The notes beneath the pieces are model-generated. The model saw only the letters and a program-made list of their open reading frames with translations. It did not search any database and was not told where the DNA came from. From IMG/VR virus record IMGVR_UViG_3300003178_000025, positions 1 through 30,323 of that record: a stretch of 30,323 bases of DNA. One strand, 5' to 3'. This document shows positions 10,616 to 30,323 of this stretch, piece after piece (the stretch's first letter is position 1; each line of letters opens with the position of its first letter). This DNA is from a virus. The position numbers and the translations under genes were made by a program.

Positions 10616-10644
10616 ACGCGCGCGCGTATTATGCGCACGCGCGT
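10616..10644. repeat. CG-rich inverted repeat 1
   Basis: ACGCGCGCGCG (10616-10626) faces CGCACGCGCGT (10634-10644) across the loop TATTATG, pairing at 10 of 11 positions. It resembles the second copy at 10761-10780. It lies 28 bases upstream of the ParB-like gene start and could bind a regulator or form a cruciform. Confidence 0.6.
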
Positions 10645-10760
10645 AAGACCTAACGTCCACGATATTCCCTCGCAAGTTTTCGAAGTGCTTTGTTAAGAGG
10701 GGGCGGGGGCGGCGCCGGCAAATGGTTAATAAAAAATCGTAATATTCCAGTCCTCCCGTG

Positions 10761-10780
10761 CGCGCGCGTATATGCGCGCG
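10761..10780. repeat. CG-rich inverted repeat 2
   Basis: CGCGCGC (10761-10767) pairs with GCGCGCG (10774-10780) around GTATAT. Sequence and layout match the first copy 145 bases to the left (CG alternation around a TAT loop), so both may be sites for one protein. Confidence 0.55.
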
Positions 10781-10811
10781 TGAAAATCAGCCTTTTTGCC
10801 GCAAAAATATA

Positions 10812-11083
10812 CCCCTTTTGGGATATAAAACCGGCGTCGGCACGAAAAAATCTGCCGCCCCCTTGACGAATATTCCACTAAATAACCCGTTCGCTACCGC
10901 GATCTGCCGCCCCCTTGTGGAATTATGCGGTTCGGAATGCGCTGTCTGCCGAACGTGCCGCCCCCGTTTTGGAATAACACGGTCCAAAACGCGACACCGG
11001 TCGCCGAGTGCCGACGCCGTTTCGTGGAATAATACGGTTTTTTACGAGTGTTCCACGGCCGCCCCCGCCCCTTTGTGGAATCT
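10812..11083 (+). repeat. Array of six related direct repeats, possible iterons or operators
   Basis: The unit reads about GCCGCCCCCTTGTGGAAT followed by WATACGGT. The clearest copies are at 10906-10931, 10957-10983, 11010-11037 and 11058-11083; partial copies are at 10854-10877 and 10812-10834. The GG of the core GGAAT (or its equivalent) falls at 10821, 10867, 10919, 10971, 11026 and 11077, that is, every 46 to 55 bases, close to five turns of the helix. The last copy supplies the -35 region of the rightward promoter. This suits binding of one protein to one face of the DNA, as at origins or operators. Confidence 0.65.
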
Positions 11084-11100
11084 TCCAATCATGATATACT
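11073..11100 (+). promoter_or_regulatory. Rightward promoter for the three-gene operon
   Basis: TTGTGG (11073-11078) and TATACT (11095-11100) are separated by 16 bases, a fair sigma-70 pair. Transcription would begin near 11107, about 28 bases before the first ATG. The -35 element lies inside the last copy of the direct-repeat array, so a repeat-binding protein could control it. Confidence 0.55.
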
Positions 11101-11134
11101 CCGTTTTCCACTCACAACGACGGGAGAAACCACC

Positions 11135-12652: not shown

Positions 12653-14525
12653 ATGTGCGCGTGAAGACCTTGCGCACGTGACCCCAATCCGGGCCGATTT
12701 CCAAGTCAGCCAGTAACGGAACGTCAAGATCGACAACCGTTTCCATGATGTGCTTGGCCTCGCCCAACGCTTCCTTGCCGGCCGGTGTGCGCGGATAGGA
12801 AAAGTCATTCTCGTCGTGCACGGTCAACAACAGCGTGATCACATCGAGAACCCCGGCTTCGTGGATTTCGACGAGCGCCTTTTTCAGAATGTCGGCCGCG
12901 CCGCCTTGAATGATCCGGTTCAATGCCTTGTAGCAAAAGGCCCGTCGAACAACGCCGTATTTCTCAAGCGCCGTTTCACGTGGAGCAGCAACGGCGCCCG
13001 GCGTCCATTCTCGCGGCTCCCACAGATCGAACCGGGCACGTCGGCCGAGCAGTGTTTTGACGAAGCCGCGAGCCTCGGCGGCACGGGTCGCTTGATTGGC
13101 GAGCATGTGGATAAAGGGCAGGTTACTCTTGAACGTGTCACGAAGCGCTTTGGCCTCTTGTTCTGTCACGCCGAGTTGCGCGGCCAGTTTGGCAACGCCC
13201 ATGCCGTAGGTGATGCCAAGATAAATAATCTTCATCATGAAGTACGCCATCGCACCGCCCGGCAACAACGACATGAACGATTTGTAACAGTTCATCGACG
13301 GGTTTTCAGCATAAAGACGCTTCAACCGCATGGCGACCGGGTGCTTGGAGTAATGCACGGTCAGACGCGGTTCGATCTGCGAATAGTCGATCTTGGCCCA
13401 CCGTTCGCCGGGTTCCGGCAAGAACAATCCGCGCACCAACGGCGCCAATACCTTGTTGCGCGACGGGATGTTTTGCAGATTCGGGTTGGACGACGACAAC
13501 CGGCCGGAAACAGCGCCGTTGTGGCCGTTCGGCAACGGATGATACTCGGTGTGCAAGCGCCCATCGACCGCGCGGTCGATGATGTTGTCGATGAACGTGC
13601 CGGAAATCTTCTCGGCCTCGCGAATGTTCAAAACCGTCTTGGCAGCCGGATGGTCAACCGTTTCCAGAAATTGTTTGGTGAATGACGGGTTGCCCTTGTC
13701 GGTGGACGGATAGGCAAGGCCGATTTCGTCGAACAACCGGGCGAGGGACGCGGAGGCGTTGACGTTCACATCGAAGCCGGCGAGTTTGCGGAGGCGTTGC
13801 TTGTTGGTTTTGACCGTGTTGTCGAGTTGGCGTTTGACCTTTTCAGCGTTGTCGATGTCTACACGCGCCCCGGTCTTGCGCATGTACCAAAGCACCTTGA
13901 GCGTCCGGCATTCAAGATCGAACACGTCGAGCAAGCCTTGTTCTTCGAGGATCGGCCGTTGTTTTTCAAGGATCTGTAGCGGCAACAACGCGTCGTCCTC
14001 GGCATAGTCGTTCACGACCCACGCCGGCGCCCGCCAGATGTTCCCGATTTGCGCCCGGCGTGTCGGTTGTCCGCCAAAATGTGCAGCGCACCACTGATAG
14101 AGCGCGTCTTCGGTCTTGGTCACGCCGAGATACCGCGTTGCGAGCGAGTTCAACGAGTACGTGTGGCGGTTCTCGTCGATCAATGCCTCGACGCCGGCCA
14201 CGTCGATCCACGTGCCGCCGAGTTCGATGTTGTCCTTTGCCAGAAACCCTACGTCGTACATGATCGCCGCGCCGACCTTTGGCATTGGCCGGGCCAGCAA
14301 CTCGCGCAAGTCGGCCAACGTTTCTTCCAACGGAAGATTGCCGCCGCCTTCGTGCCGAAGCGGCAGATACACCTTCTTGCCGTCCGGCGAGGCGAGCGAC
14401 ACGCCGACCATGTACGCATCAGGATCAAAATGGCCGGGGCCGTATTTACAAATGTGCGGATCTTTCGTTTCTGTATCGACGCCAAGGATCGGGGCGTCCA
14501 TGAATTGCGCAATTTTCGGATTCAT
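12651..14525 (-). CDS. polA: Family A DNA polymerase with 3'-5' exonuclease
   Basis: A 624-residue replicative polymerase. Exonuclease motifs: D17-T-E19, Y90-D91 and Y174-x3-D178. Polymerase motifs: SGRLSSSNPNLQNIP (340-354), motif A D380-Y-S-Q-I-E, motif B around K432 and Y440-G, LLGRRARF, and motif C H570-D-E. There is no 5'-3' exonuclease domain, as in T7-like polymerases. In the O helix the residue equivalent to E. coli Phe762 is Leu436, and the residue equivalent to Arg754 is Tyr428. A Leu at 762 is known from environmental phage polymerases and is thought to change speed and fidelity; the missing Arg is less usual. The start overlaps the previous gene as ATGA. Confidence 0.95.
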   Translation of the reverse strand: MNPKIAQFMDAPILGVDTETKDPHICKYGPGHFDPDAYMVGVSLASPDGKKVYLPLRHEGGGNLPLEETLADLRELLARPMPKVGAAIMYDVGFLAKDNIELGGTWIDVAGVEALIDENRHTYSLNSLATRYLGVTKTEDALYQWCAAHFGGQPTRRAQIGNIWRAPAWVVNDYAEDDALLPLQILEKQRPILEEQGLLDVFDLECRTLKVLWYMRKTGARVDIDNAEKVKRQLDNTVKTNKQRLRKLAGFDVNVNASASLARLFDEIGLAYPSTDKGNPSFTKQFLETVDHPAAKTVLNIREAEKISGTFIDNIIDRAVDGRLHTEYHPLPNGHNGAVSGRLSSSNPNLQNIPSRNKVLAPLVRGLFLPEPGERWAKIDYSQIEPRLTVHYSKHPVAMRLKRLYAENPSMNCYKSFMSLLPGGAMAYFMMKIIYLGITYGMGVAKLAAQLGVTEQEAKALRDTFKSNLPFIHMLANQATRAAEARGFVKTLLGRRARFDLWEPREWTPGAVAAPRETALEKYGVVRRAFCYKALNRIIQGGAADILKKALVEIHEAGVLDVITLLLTVHDENDFSYPRTPAGKEALGEAKHIMETVVDLDVPLLADLEIGPDWGHVRKVFTRT

Positions 14526-14767
14526 TCGTTGTCCAGTTCGATTTTTCCGTTGTCTTGAACCGCGATACCGTGCTCACGCAACAGATCGCGCTGTCTTGGA
14601 AGAGTGCGCACCCGATGAAGTGCGCCGGTTTCTTCGTCAATGTACGCAACCGCGACCGGCTCTTGCTTGCCTTCCTTGTTTGTAACAACCAAAAACAACG
14701 TCAAATCACCTTCAACGGATAGAAAAGCACGCACCGGCTTCGTGTCGTTCGTGATGAATACTGGCAT
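14522..14767 (-). CDS. Hypothetical small protein coupled to polymerase
   Basis: An 81-residue protein starting at ATG 14767 with AAAGGAGAAACAATT upstream and ending in an ATGA overlap with the polymerase. It is beta-rich at the start (FITNDTKPVRAFLSVEGDLTLFLVV) and helical later (RDLLREHGIAV). It is unusual in that the gene before it now runs 67 bases into its N-terminal codons in another frame, because of a duplication. Function unknown. Confidence 0.75.
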   Translation of the reverse strand: MPVFITNDTKPVRAFLSVEGDLTLFLVVTNKEGKQEPVAVAYIDEETGALHRVRTLPRQRDLLREHGIAVQDNGKIELDNE

Positions 14768-15282
14768 AATTGTTTCTCCTTTGTCGAAAGTTTACGCGTC
14801 AATAGCGCCGTTTTGGCACAATAGCGCCGTTTTGGCAACGGCGCTTCACCGAACAGAACGTCACGGCGCCACCATGCGCACGCTTGCCAAGCATCGTGCG
14901 AATAACGTTTACTGGCAACGGCGTCCAGCCAACGACAAAAATCACGGTTGGTGCGAGTCATCACGCTCAACAAGGCACGAAACCCGATGTTTTGACCCGT
15001 ACCCCAACGATTTGCCGCACGTGATTTGACGGCGTGCCACAGAGTTTTGTGTACGCTGTCGGGGTACTGGGACAGCAATTCCTGAACGGTTATGATCCGC
15101 TCTAGGTTGACGAATACCGGTCGGCCGTGGTCGGGCCCCTCCCCGTATAAAAACCCGAACTTCGGGGCGGACGTGTCGTCGTCTTCAACGAGAGTCAATA
15201 GCGCCGGCAAGAAGTAATGCGTGGACAGGAGAAAAACCGGATCGCCAAGGGCCAAGCCACGTTGTTCTGTCGGTGTTCTCAT
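14701..15282 (-). CDS. Hypothetical protein with C terminus extended by tandem duplication
   Basis: The frame encodes 193 residues from ATG 15282 (ATGA overlap with the gene before). The first 154 residues, ending PLPKRRY, look like an ordinary soluble alpha/beta protein, with Trp-rich segments (FCRWLDAVAS, WQACAWWRRDVLFG). After that the chain reads through the second copy of a perfect 19-base tandem repeat at 14800-14837. With only one copy the codons would read TAT-TGA and the protein would stop at Tyr154, a few bases before the ribosome site of the next gene. The last 39 residues are therefore probably new and non-functional. No family recognised. Confidence 0.7.
   Translation of the reverse strand: MRTPTEQRGLALGDPVFLLSTHYFLPALLTLVEDDDTSAPKFGFLYGEGPDHGRPVFVNLERIITVQELLSQYPDSVHKTLWHAVKSRAANRWGTGQNIGFRALLSVMTRTNRDFCRWLDAVASKRYSHDAWQACAWWRRDVLFGEAPLPKRRYCAKTALLTRKLSTKEKQLCQYSSRTTRSRCVLFYPLKVI
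14800..14837. repeat. Perfect 19-base tandem duplication
   Basis: CAATAGCGCCGTTTTGGCA occurs twice head to tail, at 14800-14818 and 14819-14837, with no mismatch. Since 19 is not a multiple of three it shifts the frame of the gene at 14701-15282 and removes its stop. Confidence 0.95.
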
Positions 15283-23690: not shown

Positions 23691-24008
23691 CTAGACTCCT
23701 CTTTTTCGTGTACCGCACTTGAACTCGACAATTTCAGGCCTGTGTTCTGTGCTTAGCGAAATGTCTTGTTCGTGCACCCATTCCTTGAAAATCAATCCCT
23801 TGTGCTCGATAAACAAGGTCGTGTCAAGAATCGTTCCGTTGTCGGCCAGCACACGCTCAAGTCGCCATCTCCCGGTAGGACGTAATTTTTTCCACGTCGT
23901 GTGACTTAGCCCGTTGTAATCAATCGGCCGTTGTTTTCGGAAGACGTAAATCTGTTTGACTGGCAGTCCTTTATCAACCACCGTTCCGCACGAAGCTGGC
24001 CTTTTCAT
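23691..24008 (-). CDS. Hypothetical protein
   Basis: A 105-residue basic protein from ATG 24008, overlapping the methylase stop as ATGA. It shows strands and loops around WKKLRPTGRWRLERVL and TTLFIEHKGLIFKEWV, possibly a small beta barrel. No recognised motif. Confidence 0.7.
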   Translation of the reverse strand: MKRPASCGTVVDKGLPVKQIYVFRKQRPIDYNGLSHTTWKKLRPTGRWRLERVLADNGTILDTTLFIEHKGLIFKEWVHEQDISLSTEHRPEIVEFKCGTRKRGV

Positions 24009-24556
24009 TCATTAATGTCCTCGTGATAGTCCATCAGCCAACGCGCCTCTACGCTATCCACCATCGGAAGCGGCGCGAGGCGCCTACCGAACTCCACGAC
24101 AATACTGTCGTGTCGCGGCGAACCTGCAAGCGCCCATTTGCCGTTAGCCGTTTCTTGTTCAAACGCGATTCGTCCTTTCACGAAGACAACACGCGTTGCT
24201 CTCGCCATGACAACATCATGAAACCATCGTGTCGAAACAGACGCCGGCAAGAGCATGACGACGGGGGCGGGCTGGTCCACTACCCATCGGCACCATCGCA
24301 ATAGGGAGGCGCCCGGTTGGCGGTATGGCGGGTTCAACCAACCGACGTAACCGCTAGGCAAAGTTTTCGTGAACGTGTTGTCATCAGGCGTCCACCACCC
24401 TTTGAAAAACTGCCGACGTTCAACGGTCATTTGCGTATTGTCCGCCGCGCAATCAATCAAAGGAATATCCTGATGAACGTATCCAAACACTGCGAGCGCG
24501 TTACGGATCACGTTGAACGGCGTGCGCCAACGGTTCGTATCAAATGTGTTGCCCAT
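24005..24556 (-). CDS. DNA N6-adenine methyltransferase (phage Dam type)
   Basis: A 183-residue protein with the layout of the phage Dam family (PF05869 type): N-terminal WRTPFNVIRNALAVFG, IPLIDCAADNTQ near the cofactor pocket, and the catalytic N-P-P-Y in GYVGWLNPPYRQPG. These are followed by the VVMLLPASVSTRWFHD segment and GRIAFEQ. Such enzymes add a methyl group to N6 of adenine and are thought to protect phage DNA or set timing. The start ATG 24556 has AGGAGGATAC upstream. Confidence 0.88.
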   Translation of the reverse strand: MGNTFDTNRWRTPFNVIRNALAVFGYVHQDIPLIDCAADNTQMTVERRQFFKGWWTPDDNTFTKTLPSGYVGWLNPPYRQPGASLLRWCRWVVDQPAPVVMLLPASVSTRWFHDVVMARATRVVFVKGRIAFEQETANGKWALAGSPRHDSIVVEFGRRLAPLPMVDSVEARWLMDYHEDINE

Positions 24557-24577
24557 GTATCCTCCTAGTCAAGATTG

Positions 24578-24787
24578 TTACTGCCTGTCGTTCCACGCCT
24601 CCAAAGCGCGTTCGTGCCACGCCGCCCCCGGTCTGTTCGTGTAATCCGTCCTAACCTCCGGGCCTTTTGCGTTACACGATAGACAGACGACGTGCCCTAC
24701 TAATGTTGTAACAAAGCCTGTGTCTGGTAAGCCGCATTCCGAAAGTCCTAACCTTTTTCTACCTCGGTTTCTTTGCAGACAACGCAA
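24578..24787 (-). pseudogene. Lar-like zinc-ribbon remnant
   Basis: The frame ends with GHVVCLSCNAKGPEVRTD and a last helix HERALEAWNDRQ, the C-terminal half of Lar-type restriction-alleviation zinc ribbons (second Cys pair, then an AWN helix). The first Cys pair (normally CPFCG) is missing: only ECGL stands in its place. The only start is a TTG with no ribosome site. A frame two codons away reads YRETCVVCKETEVEKG, with a C-x2-C, and ends at 24755. The gene is therefore probably damaged or has diverged beyond recognition. Confidence 0.4.
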
Positions 24788-26486: not shown

Positions 26487-27068
26487 TTATGTGCGATTGA
26501 ACGGATGCGGATACTTCGCAAGAAACCAACCTAGCTCGTCTTCCGCTTCAGCCTTTTTCGTTTCGATGTGATCGATCATCTGTCTCGGTGTTTTCCACTG
26601 TAGCAGGTAATCCACGTCATAATCACGTCTCACCATCAGATAGGCGTCGTGAGTCTGCCCGTCCAACGCGGCGACGAAGCCCAGAGGAACGGCCGTCGGG
26701 TCGTACAACAACGCAACGCGCCACGGAGCATCGGCGACATCAGCAAGGGTGTCCGCGAACTTGTCGATCTGTTCAAGCATATCGTCATACTGTTCGACCT
26801 TGGTTACCAGATAAACGCCAACTTCAAAGGCGTTGTCATAGAACGCGTCTTCAACAGCCGGGCACTCCAGAAGACGTGCATTACCGCACTCAACAGTAAC
26901 GCGCGGCACGTACCGATCACCGTAAGGCTCACGGTCAACCGTTCTGTGATTAAATTGACAGTCGTCACAGAACGACGTGCCTTCTGCCTGCGCTTTCTCG
27001 AACACGGCTTCGTAGAAATCGCGGCACCTTGCCTCGCGTTCGAGTGGTTTGTAATGAACAAGCATCAT
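26487..27068 (-). CDS. Hypothetical Cys-containing protein, first of the leader-linked genes
   Basis: A 193-residue protein from ATG 27068 (or the next ATG), with AAAGGAGAAACGACT from structured leader copy A. It has two possible zinc-ligand groups, FCDDCQFNH and VECGNARLLEC, then a domain with YLVTKVEQYDDMLEQIDKFA and YDPTAVPLGFVAALDGQTH. No family is recognised. The reading frame stays open upstream through the leader and joins a micro-ORF that starts at 27266, so a longer product is possible. Confidence 0.75.
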   Translation of the reverse strand: MMLVHYKPLEREARCRDFYEAVFEKAQAEGTSFCDDCQFNHRTVDREPYGDRYVPRVTVECGNARLLECPAVEDAFYDNAFEVGVYLVTKVEQYDDMLEQIDKFADTLADVADAPWRVALLYDPTAVPLGFVAALDGQTHDAYLMVRRDYDVDYLLQWKTPRQMIDHIETKKAEAEDELGWFLAKYPHPFNRT

Positions 27069-27266
27069 AGTCGTTTCTCCTTTGTTGTGGGTTTGGTTTG
27101 ATGGCATAGCAGCCATCTGGATGCCCCCTCGTAGGGAAGGGGCATCGGGTTGGCTACTCTCCGAAATACCAGTCACGATCCGGCAAACGCGCGGTGACCG
27201 TTTCCGATACCTTTTGCGCGGAACAACCGCCATGAACGGGATCAAAAACACACGTAGCTTTTTCAT
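27069..27266 (-). CDS. Micro-ORF running in frame through leader A into the next gene
   Basis: ATG 27266 has a strong site (GAAGGAGGTACGGC) and overlaps the previous stop as ATGA. It encodes MKKLRVFLIPFMAVVPRKRY, a hydrophobic start with a basic follow-on, then continues without a stop through leader copy A into the gene at 26487-27068. A 37-residue peptide would be normal here, but no stop follows; the TAG that usually ends genes inside this leader is out of frame. Confidence 0.4.
27074..27158 (-). repeat. Structured leader copy A
   Basis: An 85-base element upstream of the gene at 27068. Read leftward: AGTAGCCAACC, hairpin 1 (27146-27139 with 27127-27120, GATGCCCC/GGGGCATC), hairpin 2 (27117-27112 with 27105-27100, GATGGC/GCCATC, loop of six), then AAACCAAACCCACAAC and AAAGGAGAAA. 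There is no T run, so it is not a classic terminator. Confidence 0.85.
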
Positions 27267-27556
27267 GCCGTACCTCCTTCGCCATGCTCCAACCGATACA
27301 ACAGCCGCTTGATGCGCATGTGCGAATAGGCCCATTCTCGCAGAACGTCGGTGAGGAGTTCTCGCGTGGCCGGGTCGTCTTCGCTCGCCAGATGTGTGCG
27401 CAGCACGTCGATGTCGCATTCGATCTCGTTCTTCTGCCGCAACAAAAGCGCGATCGCCTTGCGACGGTTGTACGACAACGCCGCCGCGCACGTTAGAACC
27501 TGTTGCTCGATCTGCGCGATGAACGACGTAGTATCGTTTCTGTGTTGTGGACGCAT
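27263..27556 (-). CDS. Hypothetical helical protein
   Basis: A 97-residue, largely helical protein from ATG 27556, fed by leader copy B. Segments SFIAQIEQQVLTCAAALSYN, KAIALLLRQKNEIECDIDVL and REWAYSHMRIKRLLYRLEHG suggest a helical bundle or short coiled coil. The frame is open further upstream through the leader but the leader ribosome site fixes the start. Function unknown. Confidence 0.75.
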   Translation of the reverse strand: MRPQHRNDTTSFIAQIEQQVLTCAAALSYNRRKAIALLLRQKNEIECDIDVLRTHLASEDDPATRELLTDVLREWAYSHMRIKRLLYRLEHGEGGTA

Positions 27557-27561
27557 TATTG

Positions 27562-27647
27562 TTTCTCCTTTTCTTGTGGGTTTGGTTTGATGGCATAGCA
27601 GCCATCTGGATGCCCCCTCGTAGGGAAGGGACATCGGGTTGGCTACT
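27562..27647 (-). repeat. Structured leader copy B
   Basis: Same layout as copy A. Its AGTAGCC supplies the TAG stop of the gene to its right (27643-28092). One base in the hairpin 1 stem differs (GGGACATC), leaving one mismatch; hairpin 2 is intact with loop ATAGCA. Confidence 0.85.
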
Positions 27648-28092
27648 TTCTAACAATGCGATCAAGGAACGTCGTCATGCTTTCTTTGTCCCATGACGGC
27701 TGCCCCCATGTGCCGTATGCTTCACGATCGCAAGTAACTTCCCAATCCGCAGCTACTCTGTCCACCACGTGAAAGATGCGGGAAAGATCCGCAGCGACAC
27801 TTGCCACAATGAAGCGGTCTTGGTGAATGGCGCTCTCACGGACGGTTGACACAATCGCGCCGACCAGACGTTTGCCGGCGCCGACAAACTTGCTTTCCAG
27901 CAAACGGAAAACATTGTGTTGGTTGGCATAGGTTGTCTCTGCGATAAAGGAATGAATCTTTCCGCATTCCTCAACAAAAACCGTTACCACGCACGCCTTG
28001 CCGTGTACGAGCGAGGACAAAGACCTTCCACGCAGCACTTGTAAATGGTTATCTATCGCATCGAATAGACGCTCTTTTGTTAAATAGCTCAT
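27643..28092 (-). CDS. Hypothetical protein
   Basis: A 149-residue protein from ATG 28092, fed by leader copy C; its stop is the TAG at the start of copy B. Segments KACVVTVFVEECGKIHSFIA and VGAIVSTVRESAIHQDRFIV are beta strands of a soluble alpha/beta domain; a C-terminal stretch is Trp-rich (WEVTCDREAYGTWGQPSW). It shares the general pattern of length and charge with its neighbours but not their sequence. Function unknown. Confidence 0.75.
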   Translation of the reverse strand: MSYLTKERLFDAIDNHLQVLRGRSLSSLVHGKACVVTVFVEECGKIHSFIAETTYANQHNVFRLLESKFVGAGKRLVGAIVSTVRESAIHQDRFIVASVAADLSRIFHVVDRVAADWEVTCDREAYGTWGQPSWDKESMTTFLDRIVRK

Positions 28093-28099
28093 AAGCACG

Positions 28100-28182
28100 T
28101 CTCCTTTGTTGTGGGTTTGGTTTGATGGCAGGACAGCCATCTGGATGCCCCCTCGTAGGGAAGGGGCATCGGGTTGGCTACT
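28100..28182 (-). repeat. Structured leader copy C
   Basis: Full copy with hairpin 1 intact and hairpin 2 with the same GATGGC/GCCATC stem but a different loop (AGGACA on the plus strand). It supplies the TAG stop of the gene at 28178-28870. Confidence 0.85.
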
Positions 28183-28870
28183 GCGTAGGGCCGCTGATCC
28201 GCGCCTCGAACTCGGCGACTTCCTCCGGCGACGTGACAAACTGATAAAGCTCGTCCTCTATCAGCAACGAAAGCTCATCCTCCGCCGGTCTGGCACGTTG
28301 CGCAAAACGCGGCGTGGTTTCCGTCTTGATCAAGTTCCATTGCGCGTCGATCAGGACAATGGACTCAAAAACATGGTACGGATCACATGCAATCGTGATC
28401 ACCGAAAACAATCGAGCGCGTTTCTGCAAGGCGTCCAGCGTTTCGACCGTCTCCTTGTCCAGAGCCTTGTCATCAAGCTCCGTGGAGTGGAGCACGTGTT
28501 GCACCCCGCCGCTGTTGATTGAACGCCCGCCAGAGGACAACTGTTGGAGGGCCTCCCGCTCTTCTGACGTGAACATATCCGGCGTGAACACGGCTGCGAG
28601 ACGTGACACCGCTACCATCGGGGCGACGCCGTTGTGTTCCCTGACGGCTCCGACGGTATCCTCCAACACGCCCATGACAGTTTTTCTGACAGATTCAGCA
28701 ACCAGCAACGGCGGCATGGTCTTGTGTTGCCCGTCGTCACGTTCAATAGCATAGGTCACCATTCGCGTTGCTTCTTCGATCAAAAAGCTAGGCGGCACCT
28801 TACCAGCAAGTTGCGCGAGGTGCTCTGCGACCAACGACTTGAACGCGGGCTTTGTGAGCATGTACGGCAT
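28178..28870 (-). CDS. Hypothetical protein
   Basis: A 230-residue protein from ATG 28870, with AAAGGAGAAACAATT from leader copy D. It is mostly helical: FKSLVAEHLAQLAGKVPPSF, VAVSRLAAVFTPDMFTSEER and AEDELSLLIEDELYQFVTSP. It has an acidic C terminus. It is the longest gene of the leader-linked series. The N-terminal 91 bases of its coding region are overlapped by the extended frame of the gene to its right. No family recognised. Confidence 0.75.
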   Translation of the reverse strand: MPYMLTKPAFKSLVAEHLAQLAGKVPPSFLIEEATRMVTYAIERDDGQHKTMPPLLVAESVRKTVMGVLEDTVGAVREHNGVAPMVAVSRLAAVFTPDMFTSEEREALQQLSSGGRSINSGGVQHVLHSTELDDKALDKETVETLDALQKRARLFSVITIACDPYHVFESIVLIDAQWNLIKTETTPRFAQRARPAEDELSLLIEDELYQFVTSPEEVAEFEARISGPTQ

Positions 28871-29118
28871 AATTGTTTCTCCTTTGTTGTGGGTTTGGTT
28901 TGATGGCACAGCAGCCATCTGGATGCCCCCTCGTCATGCAGCCTTTCCGCCTTGTTTTGGATCTCGGACACAATGGCATACGCGTCTTCGAGACGACGTG
29001 CCAGCTCCTTGACTTCGGGATGCGAACGATCCACGGCGCGCAAAAGCTCCGTCATGGTCATATAACGCATCTCGTCAGCAGAGAGGGCGACGTTTTGATC
29101 TTGATTGATGTCAACCAT
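28780..29118 (-). CDS. Hypothetical small protein whose 3' end was fused into leader D
   Basis: From ATG 29118 (leader copy E) the first 57 or so residues look ordinary: VDINQDQNVALSADEMRYMT and VKELARRLEDAYAIVSEIQN. At about 28934 the gene runs directly into the middle of leader copy D, whose right third and the normal stop are missing. The frame then translates leader sequence (GASRWLLCHQTKP) and the start of the next gene out of frame, to a stop at 28780. The intact form was probably about 60 residues. The tail is likely non-functional. Confidence 0.6.
   Translation of the reverse strand: MVDINQDQNVALSADEMRYMTMTELLRAVDRSHPEVKELARRLEDAYAIVSEIQNKAERLHDEGASRWLLCHQTKPTTKEKQLCRTCSQSPRSSRWSQSTSRNLLVRCRLAF
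28876..28934 (-). repeat. Structured leader copy D, truncated
   Basis: Keeps the ribosome site, linker and hairpin 2 (loop ACAGCA) and one arm of hairpin 1, but the other arm and the AGTAGCC end are gone, replaced by the coding sequence at 28935 onward. Confidence 0.8.
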
Positions 29119-29123
29119 GTGAA

Positions 29124-29211
29124 TCTCCTTTGTGTTTATTGGGGTTTGGTTTGATGGCATAGCAGCCATCTGGATGCCCCCTCGCAGGGAAGGGGCATCG
29201 GGTTGGCTACT
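29124..29211 (-). repeat. Structured leader copy E
   Basis: Full copy with both hairpin stems kept. Loop 1 has CTCGCAGGG in place of CTCGTAGGG and the linker near the ribosome site has diverged (TGTGTTTATTGG on the plus strand). It precedes the gene at 29118. Confidence 0.85.
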
Positions 29212-29226
29212 TTGGCGGTTCCCATG

Positions 29227-29496
29227 TCATGCTTGGCGACGCCTTGTAACTTTGCGGTATATGGCAATGGCAACGGCGGTGATGACTAGGAACATGCCAC
29301 TTATTGGCCACGTACCTGCCACGATTACCGATGCGATGAACGATACTGCAACGTCCTCTACAGAGTCATCATGTTTCCGAATACGGCGCATTGCTGCGCC
29401 ATACACAACGGAGAAACCGACTACATAAACCATAGTGATAGCCGAGAAACGCGGCTCGATGAACCACTGCCAAATACTCAAAAGAAAATCGTGCAT
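29227..29496 (-). CDS. Small membrane protein
   Basis: An 89-residue protein from ATG 29496 with AAAGGAGAAAGTAA from leader copy F. It has hydrophobic segments at FSAITMVYVVGFSVVYGAAM (about 18-37) and from VAVSFIASVIVAGTWPISGM on to the LVITAVAIAIY stretch (about 49-80), long enough for one or two more spans, separated by a charged loop (RRIRKHDDSVED) and ended by a basic tail (RKVTRRRQA). The basic loop and tail would face the cytoplasm. Function unknown. Confidence 0.7.
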   Translation of the reverse strand: MHDFLLSIWQWFIEPRFSAITMVYVVGFSVVYGAAMRRIRKHDDSVEDVAVSFIASVIVAGTWPISGMFLVITAVAIAIYRKVTRRRQA

Positions 29497-29858
29497 TTAC
29501 TTTCTCCTTTGTTGTGGGTTTGGTTTGATGACTTAGCAGCCATCTGGATTATCGGGTTGGCTACTGCGCAAAGAAAAGAAAATACGCAACGATGGCGAGC
29601 GTAATAAAGTAACTCGCCCAGAACAACGGTCTGATCATGGGTCTGATCATGGTTCAGCCCTCCGTTTTCGATTGGCGACGTACAAGCGATCTCAGATTCA
29701 ACAAAGACCGACGTGGTGAGAATCACCGGTCTGCCGTTTAGCGTTCCGGTGATTCTCAGATGCGAACGTCCTTGTTCAATATGGATGCTTGTGACCCCTT
29801 CGTTCTCCAGCATCTTCACCACCTCGCCACGCCATTTCTTGATGCTACTCACGGTCAC
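29478..29858 (-). CDS. Hypothetical protein, HicA-like segment, tail uncertain
   Basis: The frame starts at GTG 29858, overlapping the previous stop as GTGA. The first 60 residues, VVKMLENEGVTSIHIEQGRS-HLRITGTLNGRPVIL, are strand-helix-strand with a conserved-looking His after Gly-Arg-Ser, recalling the small double-stranded RNA-binding fold of HicA-type proteins; this is tentative and no antitoxin is seen. After about residue 70 the frame overlaps the micro-protein and runs through leader copy F to 29478; that part is probably not native coding. Confidence 0.5.
   Translation of the reverse strand: MTVSSIKKWRGEVVKMLENEGVTSIHIEQGRSHLRITGTLNGRPVILTTSVFVESEIACTSPIENGGLNHDQTHDQTVVLGELLYYARHRCVFSFLCAVANPIIQMAAKSSNQTHNKGESKCTIFF
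29501..29565 (-). repeat. Structured leader copy F, hairpin 1 deleted
   Basis: The ribosome site, linker, hairpin 2 region (one stem mismatch, GATGAC) and AGTAGCC end are kept, but hairpin 1 is cleanly missing: the sequence goes from CATCTGGAT to TATCGGG. Confidence 0.8.
29561..29650 (-). CDS. 29-residue membrane micro-protein
   Basis: ATG 29650 is preceded by GGAGGGCTGAACC, a strong site, and the frame ends at the TAG of leader copy F, exactly as neighbouring genes do. The peptide starts MIRPMIRPLFWASYFITLAI and ends in a hydrophobic run (VAYFLFFAQ), a likely single membrane span. The first eight codons hold a 12-base duplication (ATGATCAGACC twice). It lies wholly inside the frame of the gene at 29478-29858. 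Confidence 0.6.
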   Translation of the reverse strand: MIRPMIRPLFWASYFITLAIVAYFLFFAQ

Positions 29859-30229
29859 AACTCGTCAAGTATCGCCGCAGCGTGGCCCGTATAACCTTCG
29901 ACGAACAACGCCTCTCGGCCTTTAACATCAAGATCCGGCACGTGTGTCAAGCGCAATGCTTTTTCGATAAGCGCCGGCGAATCGGCCTCTTTCGGATCGC
30001 TGCTCAAGTCAAGCACGTAAACCGGAGCACGCCCGCGTTTCAGAACCGCCTCGCCGCTGGCCGTGTAGTCGTAAGACTTCCCGAACAACAACACCAGAAA
30101 CACGTGCGTTATGCGGCCATCGTCGTCCAAAAACGCTTCCGACACACGAAGAACGGAACCGTACTCAAAAGGCCCGTCTTTCTTTACAGCGACAAAGCTT
30201 TGTCCGATCTTTAGCTCGTTATTGCTCAT
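29855..30229 (-). CDS. Hypothetical protein
   Basis: A 124-residue protein from ATG 30229 with TAGGAGAAAACATC upstream, fed by the leader at the right edge. It starts LKIGQSFVAVKKDGPFEYGS and continues with beta strands (VFLVLLFGKSYDY, APVYVLDLSS), then a helix (ALIEKALRLTHV) and a Gly-rich end. An SH3- or OB-like small fold is likely. Function unknown. Confidence 0.75.
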   Translation of the reverse strand: MSNNELKIGQSFVAVKKDGPFEYGSVLRVSEAFLDDDGRITHVFLVLLFGKSYDYTASGEAVLKRGRAPVYVLDLSSDPKEADSPALIEKALRLTHVPDLDVKGREALFVEGYTGHAAAILDEL

Positions 30230-30235
30230 GATGTT

Positions 30236-30323
30236 TTCTCCTATTTAGTGGGTTTGGTGTTGGTGCCATTCGGCACCCTTGATCGCCCTCGTTTATCGAA
30301 GACGATCAAGGGTGCCGGCCCAC
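30236..30323 (-). promoter_or_regulatory. Structured leader copy G with alternative hairpins
   Basis: A related leader for the gene at 30229, sharing the linker and ribosome site of copies A-F but with different stems. Arm 1 GGCACCCTTGATCG (30272-30285) pairs with CGATCAAGGGTGCC (30303-30316), 14 bp. The same GGCACC (30272-30277) can instead pair with GGTGCC at 30262-30267 across ATTC. The two pairings exclude each other, and the copy runs to the window edge. Confidence 0.65.

Follow-up and report, generated by a model that had tools for sequence, protein, structure and literature searches.

Repeated structured leaders before seven small genes of an uncultured siphovirus-like phage: a candidate site of intergenic RNA processing

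The 30,323-base IMG/VR virus record IMGVR_UViG_3300003178_000025, analyzed here over its whole length (the window), contains structured leaders on the minus strand immediately upstream of seven small genes. Six of the leaders (A–F) are near-identical and one (G) has diverged, and the repeated unit measures about 90 nt. The repeat, its borders, its stop and ribosome-site edges, and a pairing constraint on one of its hairpins (hairpin 2) are established, as are, at the level of prediction, its alternative folds. We tentatively favor the explanation that the unit would be an RNase III-type intergenic processing site, the product of which would refold to a protective 5' hairpin, and that it would have been copied between genes by recombination.

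The leaders end at ATG start codons at positions 27068, 27556, 28092, 28870, 29118, 29496, and 30229. A search of the record with copy A as the DNA query found A–F (E 7.5e-45 to 1.5e-18), and a covariance model built from A–F only independently recovered G in a search of the window (E 1.5e-4). A preliminary description, made from the letters alone, had proposed a repeated leader before the genes at these seven starts, and both searches bear it out. The next match of the A–F model in the window had an E value of 2.8, and no further copy was identified there. Leaders A (27069..27158; ATG 27068-27066), B (27557..27647; a G.U pair in hairpin 1), C (28093..28182; an altered loop 2, which favors hairpin 2), and E (29119..29211; a rearranged linker) are full, and each precedes the gene of the same letter. 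Leader D (28871..28934) lacks the 5' half and retains hairpin 2, the linker, and the ribosome site before gene D, and leader F (29497..29565) has lost the upper palindrome of hairpin 1 before gene F, which is a typical palindrome deletion. Therefore the two hairpins, linker, and ribosome site previously ascribed to all copies are complete in A, B, C, and E, but not in D or F; hairpin 2, the linker, and the ribosome site are the only parts common to all seven. The diverged leader G (30230..30323, before gene G) combines a perfect 21-bp helix with a competing hairpin 2 and reaches the end of the contig, which terminates inside it. Assemblies often break at repeats, and more G-type copies may therefore lie beyond this end.

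In the RNA sense, the 5' part of copy A consists of the X edge AGUAGCC, AACCC, the hairpin-1 core GAUGCCCCUUC-CCUAC-GAGGGGGCAUC, and CA, and the 3' part consists of the Y arm GAUGGC, the loop UGCUAU, the Z arm GCCAUC, the linker AAACCAAACCCACAACAAA, GGAG, and the start codon. The folding segments of this copy occupy 27100..27158 on the minus strand (X, 27152-27158; hairpin-1 core, 27120-27146; Y, 27112-27117; loop 2; Z, 27100-27105), and the A/C-rich linker with the Shine-Dalgarno sequence GGAG lies at 27077..27099 on the same strand. All folds and energies given here are computed predictions. The pairings X:Y and Y:Z are mutually exclusive: Y:Z is hairpin 2, whereas X:Y, which involves Y plus its loop, lengthens hairpin 1; in A, B, and E each arm of the resulting helix measures 23 nt, and the internal loop is 4/4. 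In five copies (A, B, E, F, and G), the fold of lowest energy joins AGTAGCC (or its equivalent in G) to the 5' arm of hairpin 2; X:Y is favored over Y:Z by 2.5 kcal/mol in each of A, B, and E, by 1.5 kcal/mol in F, and by about 10 kcal/mol in G. The favored fold of F contains only a short remnant of the long hairpin. Y:Z is preferred in C, in which loop 2 is changed, and D, in which X is absent, forms hairpin 2 directly (P(Y:Z)=1.00). When X was deleted in silico, all six remaining copies (A, B, C, E, F, and G) formed the 5' hairpin at −9.1 to −11.6 kcal/mol. The arrangement of two hairpins reported in the preliminary description is thus one of two competing states, but in the five copies that favor X:Y it is not the minimum-energy fold. 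The folding of A, B, C, E, and G far exceeded that of shuffled sequences (z −5.3 to −9.1), and none of 200 shuffles was equally stable. Copy G has other bases throughout, and its X:Y helix (21 bp) and Y:Z hairpin (6 bp) are nevertheless both perfect; the helix arms measure 23/23 nt in A and 21/21 nt in G although the sequences are unrelated.

Hairpin 2 is paired in 42 of 42 cells over the seven copies, and two of its six pairs are compensated, both in G alone, while one G.U pair occurs in F. A perfect 6-bp Watson-Crick stem at this position would arise in about 0.6% of random sequences. These data are in keeping with the structured RNA leader that had been proposed, and they lend modest support, through a single diverged copy, to hairpin 2 as an RNA pairing kept by compensatory change. 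From the X edge to the linker core, A–F differ by eight substitutions in total (the deletions in D and F aside), six of which fall in loops that make up 16% of the compared sites (binomial p=3e-4, or p=7e-3 when the triple change in C is counted once). The two stem substitutions in A–F give G.U pairs, which is weak evidence because a change from C to U opposite G always yields G.U. The stems are kept as previously stated, but the loops do not all vary, as the hairpin-1 loop is nearly constant (one change, in E). The linker ACCAAACCC is invariant and is conserved beyond the needs of pairing; it may be a structure-free landing site for the ribosome or a protein site.

The leader set reflects both structure and recent copying. 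The close likeness of A–F calls for recent copying or gene conversion. Outside the unit, the 30-nt upstream flanks are 20–40% identical and the gene starts 18–38%, which is the chance level, and a comparison of the seven leader genes detected no significant mutual similarity, which gives no support to paralogy of these genes as the cause of the repeat. Sharp borders before unrelated genes therefore argue for the copying of a unit. Equal identity over loops and flanks had been named as a sign of mere duplication; it does not extend to the flanks, whereas the near-identity of A–F does indicate recent spread or homogenization. The unit might thus serve mainly as a DNA-level homology joint for the swap or duplication of cassettes, with RNA folds that are incidental or secondary. 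We consider this unlikely. The near-identity within the unit, the chance-level identity outside it, and the unrelated downstream genes fit such a joint, and D and F resemble products of recombination or palindrome deletion. The stop of gene E has been lost at D, and the open reading frame (ORF) 15282->14701 reads through a junction that has the 20-nt ribosome block of D. However, both competing pairings persist in the diverged copy G although its bases differ, and this copy offers little shared sequence that is fit for homologous recombination, the substitutions avoid stems, and no relative with the element was found, so that no swapped cassette was seen. Shared RNA control and a homology joint had been put forward earlier as alternatives; the two are compatible, and the pairing of hairpin 2, on the one hand, and the sharp borders and unrelated genes, on the other, favor both together.

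The processing explanation would treat the unit as a transcribed gene junction, in which the TAG of the 5' edge can end the upstream frame, the middle is processed, and the 3' end provides the ribosome site. In a nascent polycistronic early mRNA, X:Y would form a two-turn double helix that matches T7-type RNase III sites in size and layout. A cut at this helix would separate the transcript and free Y from X, and the freed Y would pair with Z to form hairpin 2 at the new 5' end, where it may guard the mRNA against decay that depends on the 5' end; the A/C linker would keep the ribosome site open. Homologous recombination or gene conversion would have spread the unit among unrelated early genes, which would bring them under shared RNA-level control. 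From this model we infer the transcription as a single mRNA, the cleavage, the identity of the nuclease, the stabilizing role, and the mechanism of copying. The RNase III sites in the early intergenic regions of T7 are two-turn imperfect hairpins that lie in a polycistronic region upstream of ribosome sites (PMC4858673, PMC6121014), and the R1.1 site has 60 nt and a 4/5 internal loop (PMC6121014). The predicted folds of T7 intergenic regions resemble those of the leaders: the T7 sites consist of two turns of intergenic helix, in many cases interrupted by an internal loop, after which come unpaired RNA and the ribosome site. A helix of two turns is found in A, B, and E (23-nt arms, 4/4 loop) and in G (21 bp), while in C hairpin 2 is favored instead. 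In contrast to T7, the present unit has been copied near-verbatim, its third arm allows a 5' hairpin once the first arm has been released, and cleavage is predicted only.

Several points weigh against this explanation. Two of the seven copies (D and F) are without the long helix, so processing would not be obligatory for all. All functional statements are predictions. GGAG is predicted to be partly and weakly paired in the favored fold of several copies, which makes the open ribosome site approximate. Furthermore, 10 of 500 column shuffles match the observed covariation, which comes essentially from the single diverged copy G; recent duplication alone could explain the near-identity of A–F; and the conservation is seen within one contig alone. 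The preliminary description had looked to relatives for copies and covariation; no copies were found in relatives, and the covariation exists inside this genome only.

The two folds could also act as a translation switch, in which an RNA-binding protein of the phage or host, a small RNA, or the passage of a ribosome over the upstream stop selects X:Y or Y:Z and thereby tunes initiation downstream. Two near-isoenergetic and exclusive folds would suit such a switch, and the invariance of the linker exceeds what pairing explains, but neither fold clearly masks the ribosome site and D has no X. The upstream frame also reads through in A and D, and G is strongly biased to X:Y; a switch is therefore improbable. 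Within the processing explanation, a more specific proposal is that of a "process and refold" module, in which Y would serve first in an RNase III substrate, as its 3' strand, and then, once cut free, as the 5' strand of the protective hairpin, and which would be portable in carrying both the upstream stop and the downstream ribosome site. We regard this form as rather unlikely. If it is true, any gene inserted between two copies would fall under the same control, and a portable junction of stop, processing site, and ribosome site would account for the immediate expression of newly acquired small genes. The early regions of phages hold many fast-changing small genes, the joint regulation and turnover of which are poorly understood.

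No sigma-70-like promoter was found in any copy, and the total found did not exceed that in shuffles; no search was aimed at phage-specific or other sigma factors or at the T4 consensus. Terminator-like sites were likewise not detected in or near the copies, in which the T run is absent, and the reading as an intrinsic terminator was rejected for this reason. Because promoter-like and terminator-like sequences are lacking in the copies, a polycistronic early mRNA cut at the junctions would be the simplest reading. An integron attC-like site was also considered, and its core boxes were not seen on inspection by eye only. The preliminary description had compared the leaders with the start-associated sequences (SAS) of cluster K mycobacteriophages and their extended form (ESAS). 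Both are multi-copy units right before the starts of many small non-structural genes, with unrelated genes downstream, a Shine-Dalgarno sequence inside, an inverted repeat upstream, and sometimes the upstream stop codon included. The likeness stands at this level, but membership is not supported. The leaders have another sequence, a length of about 90 nt, three competing arms, and supported RNA pairing, and they lack SigA-like hexamers. The 13-bp SAS GGGATAGGAGCCC within 3–9 bp of the start codon was not present, the start-proximal blocks here being AAAGGAGAAA-like. Where ESAS have a 17-bp imperfect inverted repeat upstream of the ribosome site, the leaders have inverted repeats in the same position that differ in sequence and size. 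ESAS contain SigA-like promoters with −35 and −10 hexamers (PMC11373665), none of which was seen in any copy, and RNA hairpins in cluster K ESAS had little support in the analysis of Pope et al. (PMC3203893). It is quite improbable that each copy is an ESAS-like DNA-binding or promoter element that starts the transcript of its own gene. The position before starts, the inverted repeats, and the small early-type genes match the ESAS layout (PMC3203893), but the copies have no sigma-70-like promoter (other sigma types lay outside the scan) and RNA pairing is supported. The three competing arms make the function of "start-associated" repeats, open since the description of cluster K, directly testable.

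The promoter early stem-loops (PeSL) of T4-type phages are described as promoter-terminator units (Arbiol 2010, Comeau 2014, cited in PMC4503421). They resemble the leaders as stem-loop units that are repeated between small early genes and thought to mediate gene shuffling, whereas in the leaders neither a promoter-like (sigma-70) nor a T-tailed terminator-like site was detected, the T4 consensus being outside the scan. We would accordingly place the leader in neither ESAS nor PeSL, and its layout appears to be like that of a T7-type processing site. The HK022 put RNA consists of two adjacent stem-loops that modify RNA polymerase. A comparable antitermination signal would agree with the Y:Z fold, in which, similarly to put, two bases alone separate hairpins 1 and 2. 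It is very improbable, as most copies favor one hairpin, seven copies in 3 kb would be redundant, terminator-like sites are absent nearby, and Rfam gave no match.

The searches for the element elsewhere, which did not extend to metagenome contigs, returned neither its sequence nor its three-arm fold, although the kind has known analogues in other phages. No Rfam covariance model scored above the gathering cut-off in the window. Element words and core patterns gave no matches in viral and genome contigs, or matches without leader context; one genome had a single copy of the core word before a bacterial amidase-like gene, which was taken as chance. DNA searches of phages and plasmids gave no meaningful match, and searches of IMG/VR with the portal and PolA gave no relative, while the helicase, gp34-like, and TerL searches reached distant relatives only (at most about 50% identity). 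A scan of 23 distant related records with the covariance model yielded no full match; matches with E<=0.05 in two of them covered 16–20 bases of the hairpin part alone and were attributed to chance. A distant terminase relative, IMGVR_UViG_3300047646_000007, contains a hairpin, CTCCCGGCCGGGACATAGACCGGGAG, in two identical copies at 2744-2782 and 2954-2992. This 39-nt unit is likewise repeated before two consecutive small genes, but it has an unrelated sequence, a ribosome site GGAG within the 3' arm of the hairpin, and two copies only. Because this relative has its own unrelated two-copy leader, copied hairpin leaders seem to arise repeatedly.

The seven leader genes lie on the minus strand. 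Genes A (26487..27068, 193 aa), C (27643..28092, 149 aa), D (28178..28870, 230 aa), and F (29227..29496, 89 aa, hydrophobic) had no family match, gene B (27263..27556, 97 aa) had no significant family match, and for gene G (29855..30229, 124 aa) neither a family nor a phage homologue was found. Gene E (28780..29118, 112 aa as read) has lost its stop: it enters truncated leader D in the middle of hairpin 1, crosses it, and goes on in a frame other than that of gene D, with which it shares about 90 bases. The starts with leaders number seven as previously counted, but the genes are not strictly consecutive, being separated in places by small ORFs that have no leader (27266, 29650, 29858/29813). 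In three copies the TAG within the AGTAGCC edge is the stop codon of the gene before: B (27645-27643, gene C), C (28180-28178, gene D), and F (29563-29561, a 29-aa ORF 29650->29561), which confirms what had been stated for these copies. Behind a strong ribosome site (AAGGAGG), an ORF starts at 27266 and stays in frame across leader A and on into gene A (26487-27266), and a 259-aa fusion could possibly be made besides the 193-aa product. Apart from the TAG edge, the three sense frames of the element are open, as is the plus strand. Inspection led us to reject a coding repeat, since changes between copies alter residues and the joins to downstream frames are inconsistent.

Another junction was noted at 14522-14845, where the gene 14767->14522 has the exact 20-nt block ACAAAGGAGAAACAATTATG of leader D. 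Its upstream hairpin is different (GCGCCGTT/AACGGCGC) and has a tandem second 3' arm, so that three segments again compete. The ORF 15282->14701 reads through the junction upstream of this gene.

The contig is that of an uncultured, siphovirus-like phage, and it has no end repeats; it is probably a fragment rather than a whole genome. Its main genes, on the minus strand, encode a terminase, portal, major head protein, DNA polymerase, two helicases, a primase, and a Dam methylase. The best identities of the portal and helicase to known phages are below 50%, and the phage is therefore an orphan. At 24005-24787, the Dam-type adenine methylase adjoins a weak match to Lar (restriction alleviation) that scored under the curated cut-off, and the two could form an anti-restriction pair. 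The C-terminal half of a 424-aa protein encoded at 9338-10612 matches DUF4417 (E 5e-33), and the N-terminal part was judged by eye to be ParB-like. Non-coding DNA at 10640-11130 divides oppositely oriented gene groups and contains iteron-like repeats TATTCCAcaAaGGGGGCGGCa (minus strand, near 10922, 10974, and 11080) and CG-rich palindromes; it is a possible origin or promoter region.

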